DNA from: a virus
Direction: 5' to 3' (one strand)
DNA: 64,000 nucleotides
Virus record (IMG/VR): IMGVR_UViG_3300047557_002158
Coordinates: 1 to 64,000 of that record
Positions 1 to 61,391 of this stretch are shown here, one piece after another. The notes beneath the pieces are model-generated. The model worked only from the letters and a program-made list of their open reading frames with translations, was not told the origin of the DNA and did not search any database. Each line of letters begins with the position of its first letter. Position 1 is the first letter of the stretch. Both the position numbers and the translations under genes were made by a program.

Positions 1-1
1 G

Positions 2-100
2 ACATATGGTATTATAGAAGGATTATTTAATGTAAATGAATATGTTGAAATAAAAAATAAAACTGTTCAGGAGTTAAAAGATGTTTCACTTATTCAATAA
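2..100 (+). CDS. 3' end of an unrecognised upstream gene (partial)
   Basis: An open frame enters from the left edge and stops with TAA at 98-100, giving the last 32 residues of a protein. It overlaps the next gene's start (81) by 20 nt, a usual phage arrangement. The tail is hydrophilic and rich in Asn, Glu, Val and Lys. Too little is present to assign a family. Confidence 0.5.
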   Translation, partial: TYGIIEGLFNVNEYVEIKNKTVQELKDVSLIQ

Positions 101-1118
101 AGTTTATGTAGTTTCTGATTCTTTATTAAACATAGATTTTGATAGAGTAGTTTTATCAAAAAATTATGGCGTTCAAATGTATGGAGAATTAAACAAAATT
201 TCTAAAGGTGAATTATTAATGTATGCAAATGATTTTTCGAATGTGGAAAAATCATTTAGTGATTTCATAAAATTTTTAAATGACCGTGTTGTAAAAACCA
301 ACAAAAAAATTATAATATATGTTGATGATGAATCATTTATGAAATTAACAAGTAATTGGTTAATTAATTTATTTAAAAATATCAATGATGATACTGCTTG
401 GTTTATAGTTGATTCATATTTAACAAAAATGAAGAAAAATCAAGCTTGGAGAAGTTATAACCTTTTCACCGGTCCAAATTTATATAAAGAGGTTAATGAA
501 GTAGATTTCAAAAAGATTTTTAATGGCATTAATGTAAATCAAAGTGATTCACTTTTACTCACACTTAAAGAACAAATCAGTTTAGAATTTTTGATTGCGT
601 CTTATAAACATGACGGATCAAATTTATCACCTCTAATCGTTTGTTTGGAAAAAATATTAACAAGAACATTACAGGAAATATTATTAGAAGTAAAACATAC
701 TGTATATAAAAATCAACATAAATCAAATTTCAATATTACTTTTGATGAAGAATTTTTTTCCAATTCGACATTGTATAAATCAGAATCACTTGGTAATGTT
801 GGAAGTTTATCAAACATTGATTTGATAAATTCTTCTGCGGAAGATATTAAAAAGTTCAAAGATATTGCCAAACAAATTTATATCAACTGGGATAAATTTT
901 CAGAAAATTCTCCTGTTATTAAAAAATTAGAGTTGTTGGATTTGATTCGCAACGGATTAACAAAAGAAGAAGTTGACAAAATTTTGCAAATGGAAAAAGA
1001 AGATACTTCCAACAACAGAATTTATCCATGTAGTGATGAGGAATCGATCAACATCTATCTATTGGATCATGTCTTAAATCAAAATTCGGAACAATTGAAA
1101 TCATATCAACTTAGATGA
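81..1118 (+). CDS. hypothetical protein, first gene of the radical-SAM/oxygenase cluster
   Basis: 345 residues with a good ribosome site (AGGAG at 69-73, 7 nt before ATG). I do not recognise the family. The N-terminal ~140 residues alternate hydrophobic and charged segments like an alpha/beta fold. The C-terminal ~120 residues are charged and probably helical. No signal peptide, membrane segment or cysteine cluster is visible. Its stop overlaps the ATG of the following 2-oxoglutarate oxygenase (ATGA), so the two are translationally coupled. A role with the cluster, for example substrate handling, is inference from position only. Confidence 0.75.
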   Translation: MFHLFNKVYVVSDSLLNIDFDRVVLSKNYGVQMYGELNKISKGELLMYANDFSNVEKSFSDFIKFLNDRVVKTNKKIIIYVDDESFMKLTSNWLINLFKNINDDTAWFIVDSYLTKMKKNQAWRSYNLFTGPNLYKEVNEVDFKKIFNGINVNQSDSLLLTLKEQISLEFLIASYKHDGSNLSPLIVCLEKILTRTLQEILLEVKHTVYKNQHKSNFNITFDEEFFSNSTLYKSESLGNVGSLSNIDLINSSAEDIKKFKDIAKQIYINWDKFSENSPVIKKLELLDLIRNGLTKEEVDKILQMEKEDTSNNRIYPCSDEESINIYLLDHVLNQNSEQLKSYQLR

Positions 1119-1744
1119 AACAAAATGATTATTATGAGTTGGGTTTTTTTCAAACGAATGCACCTGACAATATTTTGAAATTACTTTGGGCAGAAATTTA
1201 TTTGACTGAGTGGATTAATGATTCTGAAGAAGGTATCTACAAACAAATACCTTCTTGGTACAAAAAGAAAAACAAATATGCATTGAAGAAAGATGGTTCA
1301 AATAGATCCGAATATGAACGTCTTATCGGAAAAGAAATATTCGAAAATACTCCGAGTACACTGATAGAAATTGGCAACAAACTCATACAGAATGGCCAAT
1401 TTGATTTTTTCAGAACTTACTACAAATCACACGAATTAAAATACATTGATCTCTGGAATGGTTCAGAGAACATTGATTACCATTTCGATACGATAAATGG
1501 ATGTGACACACTCATTCTGATTTATCTTACAGACTCCGAAAAATGGTCAACTGAATGGGGCGGTTCTATAACCATGAAGAAACAAGTTGGCAATTTTTGT
1601 CACTACGAACAAAAAATTCTACCGGATAGTGGAACTATGTTGGTCATAAACAATGCAAATCCACTTGTCATGCACAAGGTAGAAAAACTCCATAACACAT
1701 CAATAAATAGATACACCTTCTCTTTTATTTACAAGTGGTTTTAA
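1115..1744 (+). CDS. Fe(II)/2-oxoglutarate-dependent oxygenase (prolyl-hydroxylase-like)
   Basis: 209 residues. The iron-binding facial triad is visible: HFD at about residues 123-125 and a distal His near 186 (motif VMHK). An Arg near 198 (INRYTF) would bind the 2-oxoglutarate carboxylate. A WNGSEN stretch before the triad and an EWGG after it are shared with the oxygenase at 2752, so the two are paralogues. The family couples 2-oxoglutarate decarboxylation to hydroxylation of a substrate, often a protein side chain. The substrate is unknown. It sits directly upstream of a radical-SAM gene (1-nt gap). Confidence 0.85.
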   Translation: MKQNDYYELGFFQTNAPDNILKLLWAEIYLTEWINDSEEGIYKQIPSWYKKKNKYALKKDGSNRSEYERLIGKEIFENTPSTLIEIGNKLIQNGQFDFFRTYYKSHELKYIDLWNGSENIDYHFDTINGCDTLILIYLTDSEKWSTEWGGSITMKKQVGNFCHYEQKILPDSGTMLVINNANPLVMHKVEKLHNTSINRYTFSFIYKWF

Positions 1745-1745
1745 A

Positions 1746-2750
1746 TTGATAGCTGAACATATATTGAATATACACAATAAGAGACCAGATACTGGTGAAA
1801 TTATTGTAACACTGTTTGAATATTGTGATTTGAGTTGTTTATTTTGCAACCAAGACCACGATAGCTATGAGGGTATCGATACAATAGTTGGTAAGTTTGA
1901 CTCAATCAAATTGTCAATCAACCAACAAATAAAAAAAGGTAAAAAGCAAATCTCCATACATATGATGGGTGGAGAATTATTCTCGGATACAGTAGAAGAT
2001 AAAGTATTCGATGACTACGCCGAACTAACCAAGAAATTATTGGCATACGGCAAAGAAATAAACATACCTCTAGAAGTCTCTTTCATAACCAACTTCATAT
2101 GGAAAAAGAAAGAAAGAATAAAGAAATTTCTGGACGATAACAACGTATTGGTCATGACGAGTTATGATCCATCAGGTAGATTCAACAAAAAAACTTTTGA
2201 AGTGTACAAAAAAAACATACAAGATTTTAAAGAATATATAATCAGTGTCAACGTCATTATGACGAAGCCAAATATAGATAAATTTATGTCGGATAATGTA
2301 CCGTTTTTCGATTACTTATACGAAAATTTTTCAATCTATTTTGATTATTATGGACCAGGAAAAAACCATGAATTTCTAATGGCAAAAGACGTTGAGATTC
2401 GTGACTTTATGAAGTACATGTTTCAGAATTGGAAAAATTGTCATCCATTCAAAACATTTACCAATAAAACCGCGAACAAAATGTCATGCATGGATACGCA
2501 TACTGTTATGCCATCTGGAAAATGGGGTGGTTGTGGTTACTTTGAGAATTTGGAGAAAGTTATACCAATTAAACTTGTAACTGAACAAAAGTGGTTTGAT
2601 GATTACAATTGTTATGAATGTGAACATCTGCAAAGGTGTACTATGGGATGTTTTATGAGTAATCACGTAAAGGATATGAGAACTCAAGACACATGTTGGT
2701 TAAAAGAAGTTTATGATTTTGTTGATTTAAAAGTTGAAAGGGAAAAATAG
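1746..2750 (+). CDS. radical SAM protein with SPASM-like C-terminus
   Basis: 334 residues, TTG start one base after the previous stop. The CxxxCxxC cluster that binds the catalytic 4Fe-4S (CDLSCLFC, residues 27-34) is perfect, and MMGGE follows as the usual glycine-rich SAM-binding motif. The last ~85 residues hold at least seven more cysteines in a SPASM-like pattern (MPSGKWGGC, then CYEC, C, GC and C), expected to bind auxiliary clusters. SPASM enzymes typically modify peptides or proteins. The target is unknown. The TTG start is the only one that keeps the spacing and the full N-terminus. Confidence 0.9.
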   Translation: MIAEHILNIHNKRPDTGEIIVTLFEYCDLSCLFCNQDHDSYEGIDTIVGKFDSIKLSINQQIKKGKKQISIHMMGGELFSDTVEDKVFDDYAELTKKLLAYGKEINIPLEVSFITNFIWKKKERIKKFLDDNNVLVMTSYDPSGRFNKKTFEVYKKNIQDFKEYIISVNVIMTKPNIDKFMSDNVPFFDYLYENFSIYFDYYGPGKNHEFLMAKDVEIRDFMKYMFQNWKNCHPFKTFTNKTANKMSCMDTHTVMPSGKWGGCGYFENLEKVIPIKLVTEQKWFDDYNCYECEHLQRCTMGCFMSNHVKDMRTQDTCWLKEVYDFVDLKVEREK

Positions 2751-2751
2751 A

Positions 2752-3852
2752 ATGATTGTATCTTTAATTGAAGAAAACAAAGATTTTATTGCAGCTGAAG
2801 CAATCGCTTTTGTTCAAAGAACTTATCCGAATTTCAAGTTAGATAAAGAACTTATTCGTAGAGATGTACATATGATCATCGATATTTTTATGGGTGAGTT
2901 GTACGTGGAGGGCGGTGTTTATTCTTTAGACATTGAAGATAATCGTGATATGTTTTCTTTTCAATTGAATAGATATAAAAAATCATTCGTGGCATTTAGA
3001 AATCATTCCGAACAAACAATTGATTGTATTCAATATGTTAACGATTTAATAAAAAAAGTTATAACAAATCAAAAAGTGGAACCAGTTCTTAACACACAAT
3101 TTCATCAAATATACGATAATAAACAAAAATTCAATGAAGAAAAATTGAGTGAATTTGATATTATTTCCAGTTTAATTATTGCAAATTCGGATGCTGGATC
3201 AAATAGAAACTATCATATCGATTTCATTGAAGAATACTTCGATAAAGGTTTTGTGGTTACTAAAATTCCACCACATATACATGAAAAATTGTGGCGAGAA
3301 ATTGAAAATACCAAATGGGTTGATGCTAAAAATACAACATATAAAAAAATACCAGATTGGTATCATGAAAACAAAAAATACTATGTTGATCCAACGGGAT
3401 ATGATAGGCCTTCTTATGAAAAGAAAATTGCATCTGATATTTTTACGAATGCGCCAAAAAGTTTAATTGATATTTCGGATGAGTTAATACAAGATCCTTT
3501 ATTTGATCCATTAAGATTATATCGGCCACCAAATCCTATTACAAAATTTTTACATTTTTGGAATGGAAGTGAAAATTCTCCACATCATGTTGATGCTATT
3601 GATGGTTCTGATCTTATGGTTTTTTGTTATCTTACAGAAACAGAAGATTGGAAAGAAGAATGGGGTGGATACATTAATATTTTTAAAGAAGTCAATTCTG
3701 AAATAACTAATCATAAAATTGTGTTACCAAATAATGGAGTAATGGTACTAGTTAATAACTCTGCACCAATTTTTAAACACGGTATTAGAAATTTGATTAA
3801 AAAAGATATTAATAGATACACGTTTATCTTTCATTATACTTGGACATACTAA
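2752..3852 (+). CDS. Fe(II)/2-oxoglutarate oxygenase with N-terminal extension
   Basis: 366 residues from the ATG at 2752, which has AAAGGG upstream; a TTG 18 nt earlier is less likely. The C-terminal ~210 residues are paralogous to the oxygenase at 1115. They share KKIPDWY, WNGSEN, HVD of the iron triad (about residues 278-280), EWGG, a distal His (FKHG, about 341) and INRYTF with the cosubstrate Arg. The first ~150 residues are an additional, mostly helical domain that I do not recognise and that the shorter paralogue lacks. It may select the substrate. The gene lies between radical-SAM genes, so hydroxylation and radical chemistry may act on the same target (inference). Confidence 0.85.
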   Translation: MIVSLIEENKDFIAAEAIAFVQRTYPNFKLDKELIRRDVHMIIDIFMGELYVEGGVYSLDIEDNRDMFSFQLNRYKKSFVAFRNHSEQTIDCIQYVNDLIKKVITNQKVEPVLNTQFHQIYDNKQKFNEEKLSEFDIISSLIIANSDAGSNRNYHIDFIEEYFDKGFVVTKIPPHIHEKLWREIENTKWVDAKNTTYKKIPDWYHENKKYYVDPTGYDRPSYEKKIASDIFTNAPKSLIDISDELIQDPLFDPLRLYRPPNPITKFLHFWNGSENSPHHVDAIDGSDLMVFCYLTETEDWKEEWGGYINIFKEVNSEITNHKIVLPNNGVMVLVNNSAPIFKHGIRNLIKKDINRYTFIFHYTWTY

Positions 3853-3867
3853 ACATAAATTTTTGCC

Positions 3868-4938
3868 ATGGAATTAATTATTAAACCAACTGAGAAATGT
3901 AATTTCAAATGTACTTTTTGTTCTAGTACGCACATCACTGATGATAAAACGGCGGAATTAGATCACGAATATATCTTCAAGTTTTTAAAGAGATACCCAG
4001 AAACAAATACTATCATTGTCAATGGCGGCGATCCATTAATGATGAGTCCAGAATATTACTGGAAAATAATTGAACACCTGGATGAAATCGGTAGTGAGGC
4101 TGGCATATCATTTACCAGTAACCTGTGGCCATTCTATAAGAATCCTAAAAAATGGGCCAAACTATTTACACATCCTCGCATGGGTATTACAACCAGTTTT
4201 CAATATGGTGGTGGTAGACTTAAAGGTGACTTGACAGAATTCAGTGAAGAAGATTTTTGGAACGTCAGTGATATGATGCTGGACGTTGTTGGTTATCGTC
4301 CAGATTTCATAAGTGTTATCACTAAGGAGAATGAACATCTAGCCATCAAGAACGTTGAACTGGCCAAGAAAATGGATGTGGAATGTAAATTGAACTATGC
4401 GTTCAGTAGTGGACCTCCGGTAAAATTCAAAAACATTATCATGGGACAACAGGGGCAACCATATTTACTGGCAGATATTTACAAAATATATATTGAAATA
4501 TGGAAAAAAGATTTGACGCAGTGGGAATATAACACAAAACAGATGGTCAAAAGATTGATTGGCCATACAACAACTTGTCCACAAAATAGAAACTGTGATG
4601 AAAGCATTCGAACATTACAACCTAGTGGCGATTATTACAGTTGCGGTGCATTTGGTGATGATAAAATCTATCAAATAGATTTCGAAAAAGAAATGTCAGG
4701 TGAAAAAATATTTCCTTTGAAATTTCAACCAGAAATACAAAGTCTTAAACAATCCTGTTTCACCTGTCCAATGTTTCAAATTTGTAATGGTTGCAAGAAG
4801 ACAATTAAGGATTTAAAAGATCATGACTTGGTGGAAGAACATTGTTCAAAAATGAAACTATTGGCACCAGACATTATTGAATCTAATGGTTTGACGGGTG
4901 CTTTAGAACTCACACCATATGTTAGAGAATATACATGA
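3868..4938 (+). CDS. radical SAM/SPASM protein
   Basis: 356 residues. The N-terminal cluster motif CNFKCTFC is at residues 11-18, followed by VNGGDP, the SAM-binding GGE-like motif. The C-terminal region carries a SPASM-like array: CPQNRNC, then PSGDYYSCGAFG, CFTC, ICNGC and a final C. The overall layout recalls peptide-modifying enzymes such as sactionine and PqqE-type maturases, but no precursor peptide is obvious nearby. Its stop overlaps the next radical-SAM gene by 4 nt. It differs clearly from the protein at 1746, so the two may catalyse different steps. Confidence 0.9.
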   Translation: MELIIKPTEKCNFKCTFCSSTHITDDKTAELDHEYIFKFLKRYPETNTIIVNGGDPLMMSPEYYWKIIEHLDEIGSEAGISFTSNLWPFYKNPKKWAKLFTHPRMGITTSFQYGGGRLKGDLTEFSEEDFWNVSDMMLDVVGYRPDFISVITKENEHLAIKNVELAKKMDVECKLNYAFSSGPPVKFKNIIMGQQGQPYLLADIYKIYIEIWKKDLTQWEYNTKQMVKRLIGHTTTCPQNRNCDESIRTLQPSGDYYSCGAFGDDKIYQIDFEKEMSGEKIFPLKFQPEIQSLKQSCFTCPMFQICNGCKKTIKDLKDHDLVEEHCSKMKLLAPDIIESNGLTGALELTPYVREYT

Positions 4939-5843
4939 ATGTTTCTATTAATCCAAGTTACTTCTGCAATTTCAGATGTGACTTTTGTTATCTGACAGAA
5001 AAGCAATTATCAGACCAGAAGAAAATAGAATTAGAAAAACTGGATGAATTATTATCACAAATACCAAACATAGAACATGTTGATCTATACGGTGGTGAAA
5101 TAGGTGCACTGAAAAAAGATTACTTTTATGGATTGAAAAATACAATACGAAAACATTATAGTGGTAAAATTAATATTAATACCAATTATTCCATGTTGCA
5201 CGATGGATTCTATGAAGATGATTTCTACCTAAGTGTTAGTTATGATTGGGAAGCCAGAGAAAAGTCTGACAGGGTTTACCAGAACATGTTGTTAAGTCCA
5301 GTGCCTTTGGCCGTATTGGTCCTAACCAGTCCTAAAGTGTTACGGATGAATGTTGATGATCTTATATTGTCAATGAACATGTGTAGTGGTGTGAGAAGTG
5401 TGGAAATAAAACCTTACAGCACCAACCAGGCAAATCAACATCTCGTCACACACAAAGACTTTGAGGAGTTTGTTAAAAAGTGGATTGAAAGCCCAATACA
5501 AAAAAACTTTGAATTCATTAATGAATATTATATTGAAGATGTTTTGGATGGTAGTCGAAACGCATTCAGTGATGACCACATCTACATCACACCAAATGGT
5601 AAGTTCGCAGTGTTGGAATTTGATTTAAATGACAATGAATATTTCTTGGAACTGGATAGTTGGAACGATTATGTGAAATGGACACAAAAAGAAAAACGAA
5701 ACAACGTCAGTGATATCTGTAGAAGTTGTGAATTCTATGGCAAATGTCTGACTGAGCACTATCGTTATGTCAAGGATCTAAATAATGGTTGCAATGGTTA
5801 TAAATTTTTAATAGAGTGGTATCGTGACAGAATGGAAAATTAG
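4935..5843 (+). CDS. radical SAM protein with shortened C-terminal cysteine region
   Basis: 302 residues. CNFRCDFC at residues 11-18 ligates the catalytic cluster, and LYGGE gives the SAM-binding motif. The C-terminus has only about four cysteines (CRSC, KC, GC) instead of the seven of a full SPASM domain, so it may bind a single auxiliary cluster (twitch-like). The start overlaps the previous stop (ATGA), which implies coupled translation. It is the third radical-SAM enzyme in the operon. Whether it works in series with the others is unknown. Confidence 0.88.
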   Translation: MNVSINPSYFCNFRCDFCYLTEKQLSDQKKIELEKLDELLSQIPNIEHVDLYGGEIGALKKDYFYGLKNTIRKHYSGKININTNYSMLHDGFYEDDFYLSVSYDWEAREKSDRVYQNMLLSPVPLAVLVLTSPKVLRMNVDDLILSMNMCSGVRSVEIKPYSTNQANQHLVTHKDFEEFVKKWIESPIQKNFEFINEYYIEDVLDGSRNAFSDDHIYITPNGKFAVLEFDLNDNEYFLELDSWNDYVKWTQKEKRNNVSDICRSCEFYGKCLTEHYRYVKDLNNGCNGYKFLIEWYRDRMEN

Positions 5844-6222
5844 ACAAGAAATTTATTATAGACTCAATACTGATTTTGATGATGATCTGAAAACCAAAAA
5901 GGTTGAGATTTCGGATGATATTGTCAACAATGCGGTACGATATTTCAATGATCGTAATATTGGATGGATATATCCAGCAAAAAGTTATATGGTCGGAATA
6001 TGTTATTCACGTTGGTTGTCAGAATATTTTGGTGGCGAACCACTGTCTTATTTAAAAGATCAATCTTTACTTTACAACAATGATCCTTATTTTCAAACAT
6101 ATGATCAGGACAAAAAAGTTTATGATCAAATATTGTTAAAAATTAATCACTGGAAATTTGATGAAACAATCGGCCTAGTTCCAGATGTTAAGAAGTATTT
6201 TATGGAAGAATTTATGTTATGA
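5824..6222 (+). CDS. small hypothetical protein of the modification cluster
   Basis: 132 residues from a GTG start inside the end of the upstream radical-SAM gene (20-nt overlap); its stop overlaps the next ATG. I cannot assign a family. It is rich in Tyr, Trp and Asp and has no signal peptide or membrane segment. It lies between a radical-SAM enzyme and an oxygenase, overlapping both. This suggests it is made with them, perhaps as an adaptor or substrate-binding partner (inference). Confidence 0.7.
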   Translation: MTEWKIRQEIYYRLNTDFDDDLKTKKVEISDDIVNNAVRYFNDRNIGWIYPAKSYMVGICYSRWLSEYFGGEPLSYLKDQSLLYNNDPYFQTYDQDKKVYDQILLKINHWKFDETIGLVPDVKKYFMEEFML

Positions 6223-6800
6223 TTCAAAATTTATGGCCAACACCCTTTTTAAAAACGAATTTTCCAGAAAAAATAAATAACGATTTGTCCAATCATTTAT
6301 TTTTAAAATATGATTTTTTTAACAATGTGGGTCCAGATGCAATTGCAACCGAGTCAAGAAATATTTTCGATGATAAATCAAAAATAATAAAAATTTTCAA
6401 AGATCAAATTGTAATACCACTATTCGATACTTTTTTAAAAGAATCGCTGAATAAAGATTTGTCCTTTTGGAAAGGATATGCACTTAAAGGATGGTTAACT
6501 GGTTCGGGTAAAAATTATTCTTCGGAATTTCATAATCATAGAGGATCATCACTCTCTGCCATATTTTATTTGTTATGTGACGATGTGGATGTAGGTGGAA
6601 ATATTCATTTTACGGACCCAAGACAAAATTCAAATCGAGGATATGACATGAATTTTATTTCTTGGTTTGAAAATTATACCTTTGTTCCGAAAAGTGGTGA
6701 TGCAGTTGTTTTTCCTAGTTTTTTGTATCATTATGTTTCAACCTATAAAGGAAACATAAGATTGGTTTTACCTGTGGATCTTTTTTTGTTCAACAATTAA
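6219..6800 (+). CDS. 2-oxoglutarate/Fe(II) oxygenase, phage PF13759-like family
   Basis: 193 residues. The opening NLWPTPF and the core match the 2OG-FeII_Oxy_5 type common in T4-like phages of aquatic bacteria. The core has FHNHRGSS with the first iron ligands (about 104-106), GGNIHFTDPR, KSGDAVVFPS, a distal His in LYHYVS (about 169) and a following Arg (about 181). This family differs from the pair at 1115 and 2752. The substrate is unknown; suggested roles include modification of virion proteins. It is the last gene before the tail-fibre block. Confidence 0.85.
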   Translation: MIQNLWPTPFLKTNFPEKINNDLSNHLFLKYDFFNNVGPDAIATESRNIFDDKSKIIKIFKDQIVIPLFDTFLKESLNKDLSFWKGYALKGWLTGSGKNYSSEFHNHRGSSLSAIFYLLCDDVDVGGNIHFTDPRQNSNRGYDMNFISWFENYTFVPKSGDAVVFPSFLYHYVSTYKGNIRLVLPVDLFLFNN

Positions 6801-6890: not shown

Positions 6891-7229
6891 ATGGCAGCAG
6901 GATATCAAGAACTATTTATAGAACAGGGGGTCGATTTTTCAACCTCCATTACCTTGGATAATCCAGATAATGAGCCCTTTGATCTAACTGGCTTTGAAGC
7001 GAAAAGTCAGATAAGAAAATCCTATTATTCCAACAATGCATCAGCTCAATTCACCATCAGTATTGGAACTCCAGCTAATGGTACGATAAGTATGGCTTTA
7101 AGTTCAGCAAACACAGCAAATTTAGCTTCAGGTAGATATGTTTATGATGTAGTTATTAGAAAAAACAATCAGATTACAAGAGTTTTGGAAGGAATTGTTA
7201 ATATCGTACCGCAAGTTACTAAATTTTAA
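6891..7229 (+). CDS. small virion structural protein, beta-sandwich-like
   Basis: 112 residues, dominated by alternating hydrophobic and polar residues typical of a beta-sandwich: GVDFSTSITLDN, then FDLTGFEAKSQIR, then GRYVYDVVI. It resembles the small baseplate or fibre-attachment proteins that precede fibre genes in many phages, but I cannot name a characterised homologue. It follows the late element at 6850 and leads a run of fibre-like genes separated by 0-35 nt. Confidence 0.7.
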   Translation: MAAGYQELFIEQGVDFSTSITLDNPDNEPFDLTGFEAKSQIRKSYYSNNASAQFTISIGTPANGTISMALSSANTANLASGRYVYDVVIRKNNQITRVLEGIVNIVPQVTKF

Positions 7230-20775: not shown

Positions 20776-21612
20776 ATGCCCATATCATTAGGATCCGGAG
20801 TAAGATTAGGAGCTGGTGTTAGAATTTCTAGCCCTGTTATTCCATTAGAAATTGAATACTTAATTGTTGCTGGTGGCGGCGGTGGTGCATCAGAAGGAAG
20901 CTACGTTGGAGCCGGTGGTGGCGGCGCCGGTGGTTTGTTATTAGGATCTGGTACTAGTTTCAGTAAAGGAGTTGCCTACACGATTACCATCGGTGCCGGT
21001 GGTGCAGGTCGAACAGGTGTACAAGGAGTTGGCTTTCAGGGAGGAAATACTAGCATAATAGGGTCTGACGTTTCAATTACTTCGGTCGGCGGCGGCGCTG
21101 GAGGCCGAGGTCCTAATACAGCTGGTAACGGAGGTTCGGGCGGTGGAACTGCTGGCAATTCGGGAACAGTGGGTAAAGGTGTTTACCCCGGATCAACTTT
21201 CATCAGTGCTGCTAGACAAGGTTATGATGGCGGCCTAGGAACTGGAACATACGGCGGAACATCATGTACAGGTGGAGGAGGCGGCGGTTCAGCAGGAGTT
21301 GGTGTTAATATCACTGGTGGTGCAGGAACTGCAAGTTCGATCAGTGGAGCTTCTGTAACTTATGCAGCCGGCGGTAACGGAGGCGAGCCTTACGCTGGTG
21401 GTAGCAGTTCGGCAGCAAATAATACTGGTAATGGCGGAGCAGGTGCCGGTGGCCTCTCTAACACCAGCGGAAGTGGAGGATCTGGCGTAGTAATTATAAG
21501 ATATGCCGATACTTTTGCTGCAGCGGCTAACACCACAGGTAGTCCAACAGTTAATGTTTCTGGTGGTTATAGAATATATACTTTCACTGGTTCAGGTTCA
21601 ATTACATTTTAA
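20776..21612 (+). CDS. glycine-rich fibre-tip adhesin (paralogue 2)
   Basis: 278 residues. A ~25-residue N-terminus (SLGSGVRLGAGVRI) is followed by EYLIVAGGGGGAS, long glycine-rich segments and the shared C-terminus TFTGSGSITF. About one third of the residues are glycine. It is closest to the next two genes and lies only 5 nt after the LamG gene. Likely part of the host-recognition array; whether all paralogues are incorporated in one virion is unknown. Confidence 0.75.
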   Translation: MPISLGSGVRLGAGVRISSPVIPLEIEYLIVAGGGGGASEGSYVGAGGGGAGGLLLGSGTSFSKGVAYTITIGAGGAGRTGVQGVGFQGGNTSIIGSDVSITSVGGGAGGRGPNTAGNGGSGGGTAGNSGTVGKGVYPGSTFISAARQGYDGGLGTGTYGGTSCTGGGGGGSAGVGVNITGGAGTASSISGASVTYAAGGNGGEPYAGGSSSAANNTGNGGAGAGGLSNTSGSGGSGVVIIRYADTFAAAANTTGSPTVNVSGGYRIYTFTGSGSITF

Positions 21613-21624
21613 AAAGAGAAAGCT

Positions 21625-22509
21625 ATGCCATTAGAAATAGGAGCTGGGGTAACATTTGGTTCGGGAATTGAAATTTTAATGCCGACCCCGGTGGTTTTTT
21701 CAGTTGAATATCTAGTAGTAGCCGGTGGCGCTAGTGGAGCTTGGAGTACAGATACTGTTGGAACTGGCGGCGGCGGTGCCGGCGGACTCTTATCTAATAC
21801 ACAAACAGTAAGTTCTGGCACTACTTATACTGTAGTTGTTGGTGCCGGTGGTGCGACTCAAACATCAACTAATTCACCAGGCAATAATGGAAGTAATTCA
21901 AGTTTTGATATTATAACTTCTTATGGTGGTGGTGGCGGAGGATTTTGGACTGATACTGCTGCAAATGGTGGTGCTCGAAATGGTGGATCAGGCGGCGGCC
22001 GAGCTTCATCTACAACCAACGCAACACATATTGGCCGAGGAGTTTATCCTGGATCTTCATACATAGATGCTCCTAGACAAGGTTATGATGGTGGTAATGG
22101 CGCAGGAACCGGTCCAGTAGGTCAAGCTTCAACCTCTGGCGGCGGCGGTGGTGGTGCCGGCGGAGCTGGCGGTAACTCACAATTTAGAGACATTGGTGGT
22201 TCGGGAGGTGTTGGTGTAAATAGTTCAATAACAGGAACAACAGTTACTTATGCAACAGGTGGCACAGGCGGCACAAGATATATTAGTCCTGGTGGAGGTA
22301 CTCCTGTTGCCGGAGCAGTAAATACAGGTAACGGTGGCGGCGGCGGCAATGGTAATAATATTGGAGCCGCTGGCGGTTCAGGTATAGTTGTACTAAGATA
22401 TGCCGATACTTTTGCTGCAGCTGCCAACACTACAGGAAGCCCAACAGTTACAGTTTCTGGTGGTTACAGAATATATAAATTTACAGGTTCTGGTTCAATT
22501 ACATTTTAA
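21625..22509 (+). CDS. glycine-rich fibre-tip adhesin (paralogue 3)
   Basis: 294 residues with the same plan as its neighbours: short variable N-terminus, VEYLVVAGG, polyglycine blocks with different intervening loops, and an almost identical last ~43 residues. The loops differ from paralogues 2 and 4, while YPGSSYIDAPRQGYDGG is close to the matching segment of paralogue 2. Adjacent duplication with loop diversification fits a receptor-switching cassette. Confidence 0.75.
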   Translation: MPLEIGAGVTFGSGIEILMPTPVVFSVEYLVVAGGASGAWSTDTVGTGGGGAGGLLSNTQTVSSGTTYTVVVGAGGATQTSTNSPGNNGSNSSFDIITSYGGGGGGFWTDTAANGGARNGGSGGGRASSTTNATHIGRGVYPGSSYIDAPRQGYDGGNGAGTGPVGQASTSGGGGGGAGGAGGNSQFRDIGGSGGVGVNSSITGTTVTYATGGTGGTRYISPGGGTPVAGAVNTGNGGGGGNGNNIGAAGGSGIVVLRYADTFAAAANTTGSPTVTVSGGYRIYKFTGSGSITF

Positions 22510-22520
22510 AGAAAAAATAA

Positions 22521-23351
22521 ATGGGAATTAATATAGGCACAGGAATTCGTATTGGTGGTGGATTAAGATTTAATAACCTTTTAACGTTTCCAACAGTTTC
22601 TTCAGTTGAATATTTAATCGCAGCCGGTGGCGGTGGTGGTGGTGGACATTTTGGTGGCGGTGGCGGTGCTGGTGGTTTGTTAACAGGAAATGTTTCCGTT
22701 AGTAGCGCCACACAATATACAGTGACAGTTGGCGCTGGAGGAACAGCTGGCCCAACTTATCCAAGCTCTTCGACCGGCGGCAATGGAGGCAACTCATCAT
22801 TTTCCGTTTTTGGTACCACAGCTATTGGCGGTGGTGGTGGCGGTACCCGCATAAATGTAAATAATGGTTGGGTCGGCCAAAACGGAGGTTCTGGTGGCGG
22901 CGGAGGAAACGAAAATGGTACCACTGCTGGTACAGGTACATCTGGCCAAGGAAATAATGGCGGCGCCGGATATAATGGCGGTGCAGATTCTGCTGGTGGA
23001 GGTGGTGGAGGTGCAAGTTCCGCTGGCGGTGCAGCAAGTTTTCAAACGGGAGGAGCCGCAGGTAATGGTACTTCTTCATCCATATCAAGTTCTTCAGTGG
23101 TTTATTCCAAAGGCGGTAGCGGTGCATCAGGATCAGTTCGTGGCACCAGTGGCGGTGGAGTAAATACTGGTGGTGGCGGTGCAGGTTCTCAAGCAAATGC
23201 CGGTGGTGATGCAGGAAGTTCAGGTGTTGTCATCATAAGATATCCAGATTCTTTTGCTGCAGCTGCCAACACTACAGGCAGTCCAACCATCACAGTTTCT
23301 GGTGGTTATAGAATATATAGATTTACTGGTTCAGGTTCAATTACATTTTAA
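22521..23351 (+). CDS. glycine-rich fibre-tip adhesin (paralogue 4)
   Basis: 276 residues. VEYLIAAGGGGGGGHFGGG opens the glycine-rich body, and the C-terminus RFTGSGSITF matches paralogues 2 and 3. The ribosome site is weak (AAAGAAAAAATAA), so expression may depend on coupling to the upstream gene. Confidence 0.74.
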   Translation: MGINIGTGIRIGGGLRFNNLLTFPTVSSVEYLIAAGGGGGGGHFGGGGGAGGLLTGNVSVSSATQYTVTVGAGGTAGPTYPSSSTGGNGGNSSFSVFGTTAIGGGGGGTRINVNNGWVGQNGGSGGGGGNENGTTAGTGTSGQGNNGGAGYNGGADSAGGGGGGASSAGGAASFQTGGAAGNGTSSSISSSSVVYSKGGSGASGSVRGTSGGGVNTGGGGAGSQANAGGDAGSSGVVIIRYPDSFAAAANTTGSPTITVSGGYRIYRFTGSGSITF

Positions 23352-23371
23352 ATATTTTTCTATTAATCAAT

Positions 23372-24208
23372 ATGAGCATTACTTTTAACACAGGCATCAA
23401 TATACAAGGCGGAATAATCTTTGATTATGCGTCTGATATTGCGCCGCCAGCTGTGGGTCAAGTAGAATTTACAACAGCTAATACTTACACATGGACAGCT
23501 CCTTCTGGCGTTACTAGCGTTTGTGTTGTATGTGTTGGTGGCGGTGCTGGTGGCCGCTATGGAGCCGGCGGCGGTGGATTAGGTTGGAAGAATAATATTA
23601 CAGTAGTTCCTGGACAAAATTATACAGTGGTTGTTGGAACAGGCGGTTCAGAAAATGTTGATGGTGGTAACAGTTATTTTATAAATGTTTCAACAGTAGC
23701 TGGATTAGGAGGGCAAAGACCTGCTGGCGGTGGTTATGTTGGTGACGGCGGCGGTAACGGAGGACAAGGATATAATCCAGCACCAAGTTATGGTGGTGGC
23801 GGAGGTGGCGCCGGTGGTTATTCAGGCAATGGCGGTGATGGCGGCGCAACTTCAGGCGGTGGTTTTGGTGTCGGCGGCACTGGCGGCAACGGAGCCGGTG
23901 GCGGTGGCGGTGGTGGCGGAGGACCAGGAGGCGCAGGTAATACCTATGGTGCCGCCGGCGGCGGAGTCGGCATATATGGCCAAGGATCCAATGGCGCTGG
24001 TGGAACTGGTGTGAATTTAGGTTCTGGAACTCCTGGTCAAGGAGGTTCTGGTGGCACAGCAGGTTCAGGAACAACTGGCGGTTCTTATGGCGGTGGCGGC
24101 GGAACAGGTCGTTATAATGAATATGGTGGTCCTGGTGGCAGTGGAGCTGTTCGTATAATTTGGGGTCCCGGTAGAGCTTTTCCTTCTACTATGACAAGTA
24201 ACATGTAA
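23372..24208 (+). CDS. glycine-rich adhesin (paralogue 5, divergent)
   Basis: 278 residues. The N-terminal ~75 residues (VEFTTANTYTWTAPSGVTSV) and the C-terminus (GAVRIIWGPGRAFPST) match a common phage and bacterial glycine-rich fibre type whose end reads VRIIWG. They do not match the SGSITF end of the other four, so this is a separate lineage of the same fold class. No clear ribosome site precedes the ATG at 23372. Confidence 0.74.
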   Translation: MSITFNTGINIQGGIIFDYASDIAPPAVGQVEFTTANTYTWTAPSGVTSVCVVCVGGGAGGRYGAGGGGLGWKNNITVVPGQNYTVVVGTGGSENVDGGNSYFINVSTVAGLGGQRPAGGGYVGDGGGNGGQGYNPAPSYGGGGGGAGGYSGNGGDGGATSGGGFGVGGTGGNGAGGGGGGGGGPGGAGNTYGAAGGGVGIYGQGSNGAGGTGVNLGSGTPGQGGSGGTAGSGTTGGSYGGGGGTGRYNEYGGPGGSGAVRIIWGPGRAFPSTMTSNM

Positions 24209-29126: not shown

Positions 29127-29684
29127 ATGAAACACAAACATCATATAATTCCAAAACACATGGGGGGAACAGATGATCCTTCGAATTTAATTGAGCTCAC
29201 TGTTGAAGAACATGCCGAAGCTCACCGTCTTCTATGGGAAAAATATGGTAATTGGCAAGATAATGTTGCTTGGAAAGCTTTAAGTGGACATATTGGTAAA
29301 GAAGATATTATTCACATGATTCATAAGAATATGAATAAAGGCAGAATACCTTCATTGGAAACCAGAGAAAAAATGGCGATTGCTAAAAGAGGAAAAAAAA
29401 TATCCAAAGAACACGCAGAAGCCTTACATAATGGTAGAAAAAATTCAAAAAATAGTGAAGAACATTTAAAAATATTATCAAATGTGAACAAAGGCAAAAA
29501 AATATCCGAAGAACAAATAAAAAAATCAATTGAAACAAGAAGAAAAAATAATGATACTTCTAAAATCTCAAGTATAGCCGGAAAAGCAAGCGCTGAAAAA
29601 TATAAAAATGATCCTATCCGTCAACAAGCACACTCACAAAGAATGAAAAAATGGTGGGATGAAAGAAGAAAGGTAGGAACCTAA
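29127..29684 (+). CDS. free-standing HNH homing endonuclease with NUMOD3-like repeats
   Basis: 185 residues. The start (HHIIPKHMGGTDDPSNLIEL, then VEEHAEAH) is an HNH nuclease core with the His-His, Asn and terminal His ligands. The C-terminal half has NUMOD3-like DNA-binding repeats (TREKMAIAKRGKKIS, EEQIKKSIETRRKN), each suited to minor-groove contact. The protein is very basic. It interrupts the conserved neighbourhood of genes 13 and 14, as mobile endonucleases do in T4-like genomes. Confidence 0.88.
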   Translation: MKHKHHIIPKHMGGTDDPSNLIELTVEEHAEAHRLLWEKYGNWQDNVAWKALSGHIGKEDIIHMIHKNMNKGRIPSLETREKMAIAKRGKKISKEHAEALHNGRKNSKNSEEHLKILSNVNKGKKISEEQIKKSIETRRKNNDTSKISSIAGKASAEKYKNDPIRQQAHSQRMKKWWDERRKVGT

Positions 29685-60056: not shown

Positions 60057-60130
60057 TCCCGGATTGTGTAGTGGTAGCACAGCAGACTTTGACTCTGTTA
60101 GTATAAGTTCGATTCTTATTCCGGGTGCCA
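60057..60130 (+). tRNA. tRNA-Gln (anticodon TTG)
   Basis: Cloverleaf with acceptor TCCCGGA/TCCGGGT, anticodon loop CTTTGAC, T-arm ATAAG-TTCGATT-CTTAT and encoded CCA. The first acceptor pair is a T-T mismatch; glutaminyl-tRNAs commonly have a weak first pair. Its CCA is part of the following inverted repeat. Confidence 0.93.
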
Positions 60131-60224
60131 TATTAAAGCATGTTATAGTGACGCATGAGCAGGTCATTAACTTCCGCTGGTTACGTCAATCGTAAGTGGG
60201 TGAAGGTAATATGCTTTAATATGG
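60128..60224 (+). ncRNA. hairpin-closed RNA after tRNA-Gln
   Basis: CCATATTAAAGCAT (60128-60141) is the perfect reverse complement of 60211-60224, a 14-bp closing stem that includes the tRNA's CCA. Inside are two arms: GTTA..GTGAC/GTCAT..TAAC and TTACG-TCAAT-CGTAA, giving a three-way junction of about 97 nt. It may be a stable RNA like T4 species 1 and 2, or a processing signal. Confidence 0.68.
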
Positions 60225-60243
60225 TAATATAAGGAGATGTACA

Positions 60244-60702
60244 ATGAAAAAAATTGTATTGTCTATATTATTGTGTATGCCATTGTTTGCAAATGCATGT
60301 AAAGGTTATGTAATAGGTTTTAAAGGTTTGAATGAATCTTTTAATTCTGTTGCGTTTCAAAAATACGCGGATCGTTTAGGTTATTGTGGTAAATCTTTTT
60401 CCTGGTTTCAAGATAAAGAAGCATTACAGTACATTCAAACACTAAAGAAACCATATCGCCTTTATGGTTTTAGTAGAGGCGCACAGACAGTTTCGGATGT
60501 GTTAAAACAAACGAAAACAAAACCTGAATATGTTTTAACAATCGGTGCATACAAAACAACAAATGTAAATTTTGATAAACATCGTGTTCGTTATGATAAC
60601 TTCTTTGATCAATCTGGTGTTGGTCAGAAAAGTCCAGGAGTATTTTTCAATGTATCTCATGCGGATATAGAAAAAGAAGTAAGTGAATTTTTGATAGAAT
60701 AA
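60244..60702 (+). CDS. secreted alpha/beta-hydrolase-like protein
   Basis: 152 residues. The N-terminus (KKIVLSILLCMPLFANA) is a signal peptide, with cleavage probably before Cys19. YGFSRGAQT near residue 78-86 is a GxSxG-type nucleophile elbow, and VSHADIEKE near the end could supply a His. Two Cys near the N-terminus could form a disulfide. It is short for a full lipase, so it may be a minimal esterase-like protein acting in the periplasm, perhaps at the envelope. AAGGAGA precedes the ATG. Confidence 0.72.
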   Translation: MKKIVLSILLCMPLFANACKGYVIGFKGLNESFNSVAFQKYADRLGYCGKSFSWFQDKEALQYIQTLKKPYRLYGFSRGAQTVSDVLKQTKTKPEYVLTIGAYKTTNVNFDKHRVRYDNFFDQSGVGQKSPGVFFNVSHADIEKEVSEFLIE

Positions 60703-60703
60703 T

Positions 60704-60795
60704 GGAAGCGTGCCAGAGCCCGGTTTATTGGAACAGTCTTGAAAACTGTCGTGTCAGAAATGGCACCGTGAGTTCGAATCTCACCGCTTCCACCA
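60704..60795 (+). tRNA. tRNA-Ser (anticodon TGA)
   Basis: Acceptor GGAAGCG/CGCTTCC, anticodon loop CTTGAAA, long variable arm (about 18 nt) as required for serine, T-arm with GTTCGAATC and encoded CCA. It begins 1 nt after the hydrolase-like gene. Confidence 0.95.
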
Positions 60796-60811
60796 ATTTT
60801 AGGAGTTTAAA

Positions 60812-61387
60812 ATGCCAGCAGTGTTTCTTGTAAGTGACACACACTTTGGTCATGCTGGTGTGTGCCGGTTTCTTCGTGAAGATGGAACAAAACTTAGGCC
60901 ATGGGATTCACCAGAAGAAATGGATGAAGCAATGGTTAAAATGTGGAACGAAACAGTTCGTCCAAATGATAAAGTTTACCATCTTGGCGATGTTGTGATC
61001 AATCGTAAAGCTCTAAGTATTTTACATAGGCTTAACGGTGATAAAATTCTGATTCGTGGCAATCATGATATCTTTAAACTTGAGGATTATACTCGACACT
61101 TTAGAGATATTCGTGGTTACCATGTGATGAACGGGATGATTCTTTCACACATCCCTGTCCATGAAGAAAGCCTTGGAAGGTTTGGTACAAACATTCACGG
61201 TCATTTACACGCTAATCGTGTCATGAAAGTGGACGAGTATGGCACTTCATGGATTGATCCACGTTACCATTGTATTTGCGTTGAGCAAACTGATTTCCGC
61301 CCTATATTGTTTGAAGATGTGTTGAAGCGTATCAGAGAAGAAGGTGGTGGTATCGGTTTCCGTAATGGTAACGGTCCAGCAATGTGA
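60812..61387 (+). CDS. calcineurin-like metallophosphoesterase
   Basis: 191 residues. Metal-binding motifs in order: SDTHFGH (8-14), LGDVV, GNHD, HIPVH and GHLH. This set fits small phage phosphoesterases acting on nucleic acid ends, cyclic nucleotides or phosphoproteins; the substrate is unknown. AGGAG precedes the ATG. It lies between two tRNA-Ser genes in the same operon. Confidence 0.9.
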   Translation: MPAVFLVSDTHFGHAGVCRFLREDGTKLRPWDSPEEMDEAMVKMWNETVRPNDKVYHLGDVVINRKALSILHRLNGDKILIRGNHDIFKLEDYTRHFRDIRGYHVMNGMILSHIPVHEESLGRFGTNIHGHLHANRVMKVDEYGTSWIDPRYHCICVEQTDFRPILFEDVLKRIREEGGGIGFRNGNGPAM

Positions 61388-61391
61388 AAGA

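Follow-up and report, generated by a model that had tools for sequence, protein, structure and literature searches.

In radical-SAM/SPASM clusters for ribosomally synthesized and post-translationally modified peptides (RiPPs), such as the DynA, PapB and GrrM types in NCBIfam, SPASM radical S-adenosylmethionine (SAM) enzymes, sometimes with oxygenases, are encoded beside a gene whose product has a conserved, repeat-bearing end. The His-Xaa-Ser (Hxs) system, comprising TIGR03977 HxsC and its partners, has His/Ser-based repeats and paired radical-SAM enzymes (Haft and Basu, mentioned in PMC9062424). In cyclophane RiPP clusters with the 2-oxoglutarate (2OG) oxygenase YhhC, a radical-SAM enzyme and a 2OG oxygenase act on a peptide. 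Here we describe a phage gene cassette with a comparable layout. It was examined from a stretch of 64,000 nucleotides, bases 1-64000 of the 68,044-base virus contig IMGVR_UViG_3300047557_002158 (hereafter the window), which carries eight of the cassette genes, g1 to g8. In its relatives the cassette also encodes a small protein, F7, and the C-terminal tail of F7 is the likely substrate of the enzymes.

Viral contigs were scanned with g5, the best conserved of the eight genes, which yielded 89 relatives; 80 loci (L numbers) were retained and their open reading frames (ORFs) were clustered into families (F numbers). In L003 and L026, the order is: fibre protein, F4, F0a, F7, F5, F6 (g1), F11 (g2), F3 (g3), F11 (g4), F0b (g5), F0c (g6), F2 (g7), F1 (g8), fibre-assembly-type protein. 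Window positions 1-900 were aligned with the nearest relative, L003, whose g5 is 94% identical. Judged by this alignment, the contig begins inside F5 (phrog_20767): positions 2..100 on the + strand hold the last codons of this gene, and the encoded residues, TYGIIEGLFNVNEYVEIKNKTVQELKDVSLIQ, match the end of L003 F5. By the same comparison, at least four cassette genes, the tail-protein gene among them, lie upstream of base 1, and the window holds the right two thirds of the cassette. A tail gene placed at the far contig end by circular permutation was also considered, and bases 60001-68044 contain no such gene.

The earlier note on this DNA had counted six enzymes, three radical-SAM proteins and three oxygenases. 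These stand, but the set is larger. The full cassette adds F4, which passes the Pfam Cupin_2 and JmjC_2 cut-offs (a JmjC/cupin oxygenase), and F0a, a fourth radical-SAM protein that in L003 reaches the Pfam SPASM cut-off. Other loci add accessory genes, including a B12-binding radical-SAM protein (F14), more radical-SAM proteins and a further 2OG oxygenase (F10).

About 80 viral loci share the core genes and their order, with an accessory radical-SAM/oxygenase insert that varies. The earlier note had proposed searching other phage genomes for the same gene set, and had named absence of the order from every relative as an outcome that would speak against it; the loci did not bear this out. Because the order is kept over dozens of independent contigs, the clustering of these genes is not due to chance. 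Among annotated phage records, g5, g6 and g7 co-occur in exactly the same seven: Burkholderia FLC6, FLC8 and SURPRISE13, Sinorhizobium Phosso, Agrobacterium Atu_ph07 (two records) and Pseudomonas pPa_SNUABM_DT01. As classified in PMC6102473, PMC8066314 and PMC11898562, phiKZ-like Chiangmaivirus phages are among these carriers, as is a Rak2-like jumbo phage from the T4 superfamily, so the cassette crosses phage lineages. In SURPRISE13 (L083 7852-9029), two cassette genes are annotated as dihydrofolate reductase and may be misannotated members.

The F7 gene sits between F0a and F5 and usually encodes about 190 aa, with a variable body and a near-constant C terminus, CHxSCHxSCHxSR[GS]RR. In an alignment of 33 diverse F7 proteins (VCHxSCHxSCHxSRGRR), mean column identity is 31% and the three Cys-His pairs are the sole columns without any variation; one Ser and the three Arg residues vary very little. 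This conservation is an independent finding, since the aligned loci were collected by g5 similarity or as named phages and the tail was not used. A Cys-His repeat tail is encoded in 53 of the 54 cassettes collected in this way that have an interior F5. The sole exception, L009, looks complete, with radical-SAM genes, F5, the B12-binding radical-SAM gene and F2, and no Cys-His tail protein was found in it; this cassette may use a different substrate.

For the converse search, the tail was written as a degenerate DNA pattern, which matched at least 120 stretches of viral contigs. Nearly all true matches terminate exactly after RxRR. Among the matches listed, there are 145 distinct viral tail proteins; 137 of these lie no more than 6 kb from cassette radical-SAM genes, and the other eight are near locus ends. 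Cys, His and Arg counts in this set are fixed by the pattern, whereas Ser 4, 8 and 12 and the Gly before RR are free. These free residues are present in 134, 113, 129 and 130 proteins, respectively. Blastp with the tail-protein bodies gives clusters of 105 and 39 and nine small ones, and because it leaves these groups unconnected, a single tail is borne by different bodies. The body is free of Cys in 103 of the 145 proteins, and F5 is directly 3′ of F7 in 90 of the 145 cases.

AlphaFold predicts a confidently folded F7 body and a low-confidence tail. Comparison of F7 with the PDB gave 0 matches at E ≤ 0.001, and comparison with BFVD gave solely uncharacterised phage proteins, including a 296-aa Atu_ph07 protein (the length of gp170, see below) and larger Myoviridae sp. 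ctijX18 proteins. No NCBIfam family matches F7, and PDB-sequence profile searches with F5, F2 and F7 returned nothing useful. A ubiquitin-E2 match of F6 in such a search (3e-4) is weak and was treated as chance.

Several variants of the tail proteins were also seen. The CHxS repeats are expanded in L069 (6012-6716), with NVPV spacers between them; the tail has five repeats in L077 (7379-7936) and lacks the RxRR ending in L037 (7617-8189). In L119, seven consecutive radical-SAM-like ORFs adjoin the gene of a tail protein whose body type is unique in the set. A second, shorter tail-protein family of about 126 aa (F38) is found in L028 (585-1354), L057, L088, L112, L155 and others. Its genes usually form tandem pairs adjoining F9-type radical-SAM genes and F61, with F0a not adjacent, and in L028, L057 and L131 F38 occurs together with part of the classic cassette.

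The cassette is consistently found in a fibre context. In phage loci, a fibre gene is located upstream and fibre-assembly or fibre genes are located downstream, and in one variant (L096) a Gly-rich region resembling a tail fibre (phrog_12796, E 0.002) is joined to the start of the F7 body. Mass spectrometry of Atu_ph07 virions placed most virion proteins in clusters CDS 31-76, CDS 170-215 and CDS 284-329 (PMC6102473). RefSeq numbering and the numbering in that paper agree for the portal (gp198) and prohead core (gp204) proteins. The F7 tail protein is gp170, and the cassette genes gp165-169 fall outside the virion cluster. Since gp170 is F7 and the numbering agrees, the cluster CDS 170-215 starts at F7. 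Gene position, this published boundary and the domain context together suggest indirectly that the F7 tail is carried on the virion.

The tail pattern was also searched for in one genome per species of about 85,000 prokaryotes, which gave 88 stretches. Most of these are frame or composition accidents, and GC-rich matches that are out of frame or not C-terminal were discarded. The true matches are mainly in metagenome-assembled genomes (MAGs) of Bdellovibrionota and in contigs resembling phage that were binned into other MAGs. A g5 match is present in all nine bacterial genomes examined, and seven of these matches are near full-length with 53-62% identity, compared with 57-64% in the named jumbo phages. 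Genes for ribosomal protein S20 (rpsT) and pyruvate kinase are close by, which indicates that the bacterial cassettes are chromosomal. The cassette is thus not confined to phages. Within the phylum the tail is sporadic, since the pattern occurs in 8 of 291 sampled genomes (reversed control, 0). In a tree of g5 orthologues, bacterial tips interleave with tips from viral contigs, which suggests exchange of the cassette between phages and bacteria in one direction or both.

Proteins with S74 endosialidase-chaperone domains, one of them with a prepilin-type N terminus, are encoded near the bacterial cassettes. There are one to four S74 genes per genome, and in 6 of 6 genomes with both features on the tail contig the nearest S74 gene is 2.6-13.7 kb from the tail (combined chance ∼6e-8). 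In Bdellovibrio, the MAT fibres that recognise prey are S74 fibres (PMC10769870). Proteins of about 200 aa abut S74 fibre genes in two Bdellovibrionota cassettes (L297 5695-6324 and L300 10929-11528).

From the observed gene content and order, the co-occurrence of tail and enzymes, the invariance of the tail and the fibre context in two kinds of organism, we infer that the tail is the substrate of the enzymes. We estimate at roughly two in three the probability that the cassette directs a RiPP-like, multi-enzyme maturation of the Cys/His/Ser/Arg tail on a fibre-associated attack protein, F7. In such a pathway, the folded body of this small protein would present an unstructured CHxSCHxSCHxSR[G/S]RR tail. 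At least four radical-SAM enzymes (including g3, g5, g6 and F0a) and the Fe(II) oxygenases (F4, g2, g4 and g8) would act on the tail sequentially, modifying Cys, His, Ser and/or Arg residues in several steps. F5, F6 (g1) and F2 (g7) would serve as partner or scaffold proteins, and F5 may bind the substrate. The mature tail would then be displayed on the virion fibre apparatus and contact the host surface, a role suggested by the fibre linkage in both phages and predators; in predatory Bdellovibrionota it would be linked likewise to S74-type surface fibres. The earlier note had envisaged one pathway that modifies virion proteins, perhaps fibres. The conserved order at fibre genes and the peptide- and protein-modifying enzyme classes favor this idea, but the likely substrate is the small cassette-encoded protein ending in CHxSCHxSCHxSRxRR and not the long fibres.

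The enzyme classes permit a range of reactions. Radical-SAM enzymes of the SPASM class can form C-S or C-C bonds, epimerise or dehydrogenate, JmjC_2-type enzymes can hydroxylate His or Arg, and B12-dependent radical-SAM enzymes, relevant where F14 is present, can methylate carbon. Formylglycine formation is another possible chemistry: the sulfatase motif CxPSR is similar to the last repeat, CHxSR, and the second-best NCBIfam match of g5 is an anaerobic sulfatase maturase.

The alternative that survives best is that the tail is cleaved and released as a diffusible RiPP, perhaps a toxin, a metallophore or a superinfection-exclusion factor, with the body acting as an oversized leader. A precursor beside radical-SAM and oxygenase genes is a RiPP-like layout, and the tail is constant while the bodies vary. 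However, the body is a confidently folded domain, unlike a typical leader, and no recurrent protease or exporter was recognised in the cassette. Its genes are also located among late fibre genes, and F7 opens the Atu_ph07 virion-protein cluster. We regard release of a free peptide as unlikely.

Slightly less probable is a cofactor tail, with Cys and His as ligands of a metal or cluster; the enzymes would then introduce or shield unusual ligands, and the fibre tip would be capped with metal. The regular spacing of the three Cys-His pairs fits this proposal, and His-coordinated iron can occur at the tips of phage spikes and fibres. However, a tail that only bound metal would not require four to eight radical-SAM and oxygenase enzymes, and the conservation of Ser and Arg would be left unexplained. 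This explanation is compatible with maturation of the tail, not opposed to it.

It is improbable that the product of the enzymes is a metabolite or a surface glycan, with the tail protein as a carrier or an unrelated late gene product. Metabolite or glycan synthesis has been proposed for clusters of 2OG and cupin-like enzymes in cyanophages (PMC7824862). Yet no glycosyltransferase, ligase or nucleotidyltransferase was recognised in the recurrent cassette families examined, and the tail is invariant and accompanies the enzymes in 53/54 cassettes. A chance cluster of auxiliary genes or host-derived hitchhikers, for which the differences in accessory F14, F9, F10 and F11 between loci might speak, is highly implausible, since the core order is kept in T4-like phages, phiKZ-like Chiangmaivirus jumbo phages and bacterial chromosomes.

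Some observations weigh against maturation of a virion-borne tail. The window contig itself is without the tail gene, and no Cys-His repeat pattern is present within the window. Modification in the virion is deduced from where the genes lie, from the published cluster boundary and from the domain context. The Atu_ph07 text does not mention gp170 by name, and the detection of this protein in virions is deduced from the cluster boundary. F5, F6 and F2 matched no known fold or function in PDB profile searches or, for F6, with Foldseek. Pfam and NCBIfam searches of representative members recognised no leader-binding domain of the RiPP recognition element (RRE) type, no maturation protease and no exporter, although divergent forms of all three could be missed. 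Some bacterial cassettes have only a weak match to F6 or to the F4 cupin, or none. The tail could instead be a metal-binding motif, with the enzymes acting elsewhere.

If maturation of the F7 tail is correct, this would be an unusual instance in which a lytic phage spends some 10 kb, and numerous radical- and oxygen-dependent enzymes, on the chemical modification of one small protein tail. The same cassette beside fibre genes in jumbo phages, T4-like marine phages and Bdellovibrionota would point to a shared, strongly selected trick against bacterial cells. CHxSCHxSCHxSRGRR is a concrete substrate that can be tested, cultured phages that carry the cassette are named, and a set of uncharacterised enzymes would be opened up for peptide chemistry.

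The window most closely resembles T4-like Prochlorococcus/Synechococcus myoviruses in its large terminase (about 56% identity). The eight genes g1-g8 (81-6800) are encoded on the + strand with spacings of -4, +1, -17, +15, -4, -20 and -4 bases, tightly packed or overlapping, and they are located where the earlier note had placed them. Of its two proteins without recognised function, one is g7 (F2; 5824..6222; phrog_20737), a conserved protein of 132 aa found in every named cassette phage. The other is g1 (F6; 81..1118; 345 aa), which lies just outside the block of 1115-6800 marked by that note. In phages g1 is a core member; its AlphaFold model has a predicted local distance difference test (pLDDT) score of 89 and gave 0 matches at E ≤ 0.001 with Foldseek against the PDB.

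The three radical-SAM proteins proposed earlier are g3 (F3; 1746..2750), whose orthologue family is present in 67 loci, g5 (F0b; 3868..4938) and g6 (F0c; 4935..5843). Each has the CxxxCxxC motif (CDLSCLFC, CNFKCTFC and CNFRCDFC, respectively) and matches phrog_1802 (E 6e-34 to 1e-59). With Pfam Radical_SAM, g5 and g6 are over the cut-off and g3 is under it (21 vs 29.5 bits). As to the two SPASM-like tails, g3 has the full CX2CX5CX3C motif at its C terminus, whereas g5 is near-complete, with CX2CX5C and one more Cys, and scores 26.1 bits with TIGR04085 (cut-off 27). The C-terminal Cys motif of g6 is reduced.

The three Fe(II)/2OG oxygenases are likewise borne out. The HxD/HxH...H...R pattern is present in g2 (F11; 1115..1744), g4 (F11; 2734..3852) and g8 (F1; 6219..6800; phrog_81); g2 and g4 are barely over the Pfam cut-off for PF13640, and g8 is over that for PF13759. 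An extra N-terminal domain of g4 (about residues 7-125) matches phrog_4527 short tail fiber (E 8e-5). This domain type is present three times in a 972-aa tail-fibre ORF of L111 (E 5e-6), which also carries the cassette. The right edge of the cassette is a fibre-assembly-type gene at 6891..7229, + strand (phrog_1084/phrog_3304, L-shaped tail fibre assembly), in agreement with an operon located just before a fibre block. Elsewhere in the window there are four glycine-rich fibre-like proteins in a row, encoded by DNA of elevated GC content and strongly positive GC skew (20776-24208), a small HNH/homing-type endonuclease-like ORF between two neck/tail genes (29127-29684), and 18 tRNA genes in less than 4 kb (60057-63889), an array that may run beyond the window end.

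The Chiangmaivirus genome papers (PMC8066314, PMC11898562) list the cupin, radical-SAM and 2OG proteins of this locus as accessory proteins of unknown role, and their available text proposes no substrate, tail or pathway. Radical SAM is not mentioned in a jumbo-phage survey, and no description of the tail or pathway was found in the open-access literature, although prior work may exist. The trimeric MAT/S74 fibres of Bdellovibrio (PMC10769870) are related to the cassette through the closeness of the predator S74 fibre genes. However, the tail protein itself is neither S74 nor MAT, and the MAT fibre paper does not mention radical SAM. The YhhC cyclophane clusters differ in that the cassette has no aromatic-rich core, and g4 scores 17 bits with NF041706 against a cut-off of 150. 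The cassette tail differs from Hxs repeats in the invariant Cys that precedes each His and in its RxRR ending. Assignment to either system was rejected on scores; for Hxs, the HxsC score of g5 is 27.1 vs a cut-off of 267.9 bits, and F7 has no NCBIfam match.

The radical-SAM/SPASM RiPP clusters are closest in layout. A conserved core beside modifying enzymes, the mark of a RiPP precursor, is found in the relatives (53/54), the window contig being truncated. However, the scanned cassette proteins are under every NCBIfam radical-SAM equivalog cut-off (g5 with DynA, 47.6 vs 450 bits). We see evenly balanced odds that the cassette represents an undescribed class of radical-SAM/oxygenase-matured CHxS-repeat tail, common to tailed phages and predatory bacteria, that would arm attachment fibres, for example by forming crosslinks, reactive groups or metal-binding residues where the surface of prey or host is contacted. 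In contrast to the known RiPP clusters, in which an RRE, protease or exporter would be sought and here none was recognised, the cassette precursor is folded and probably fibre-associated, and the cassette is found in lytic phages and predators.

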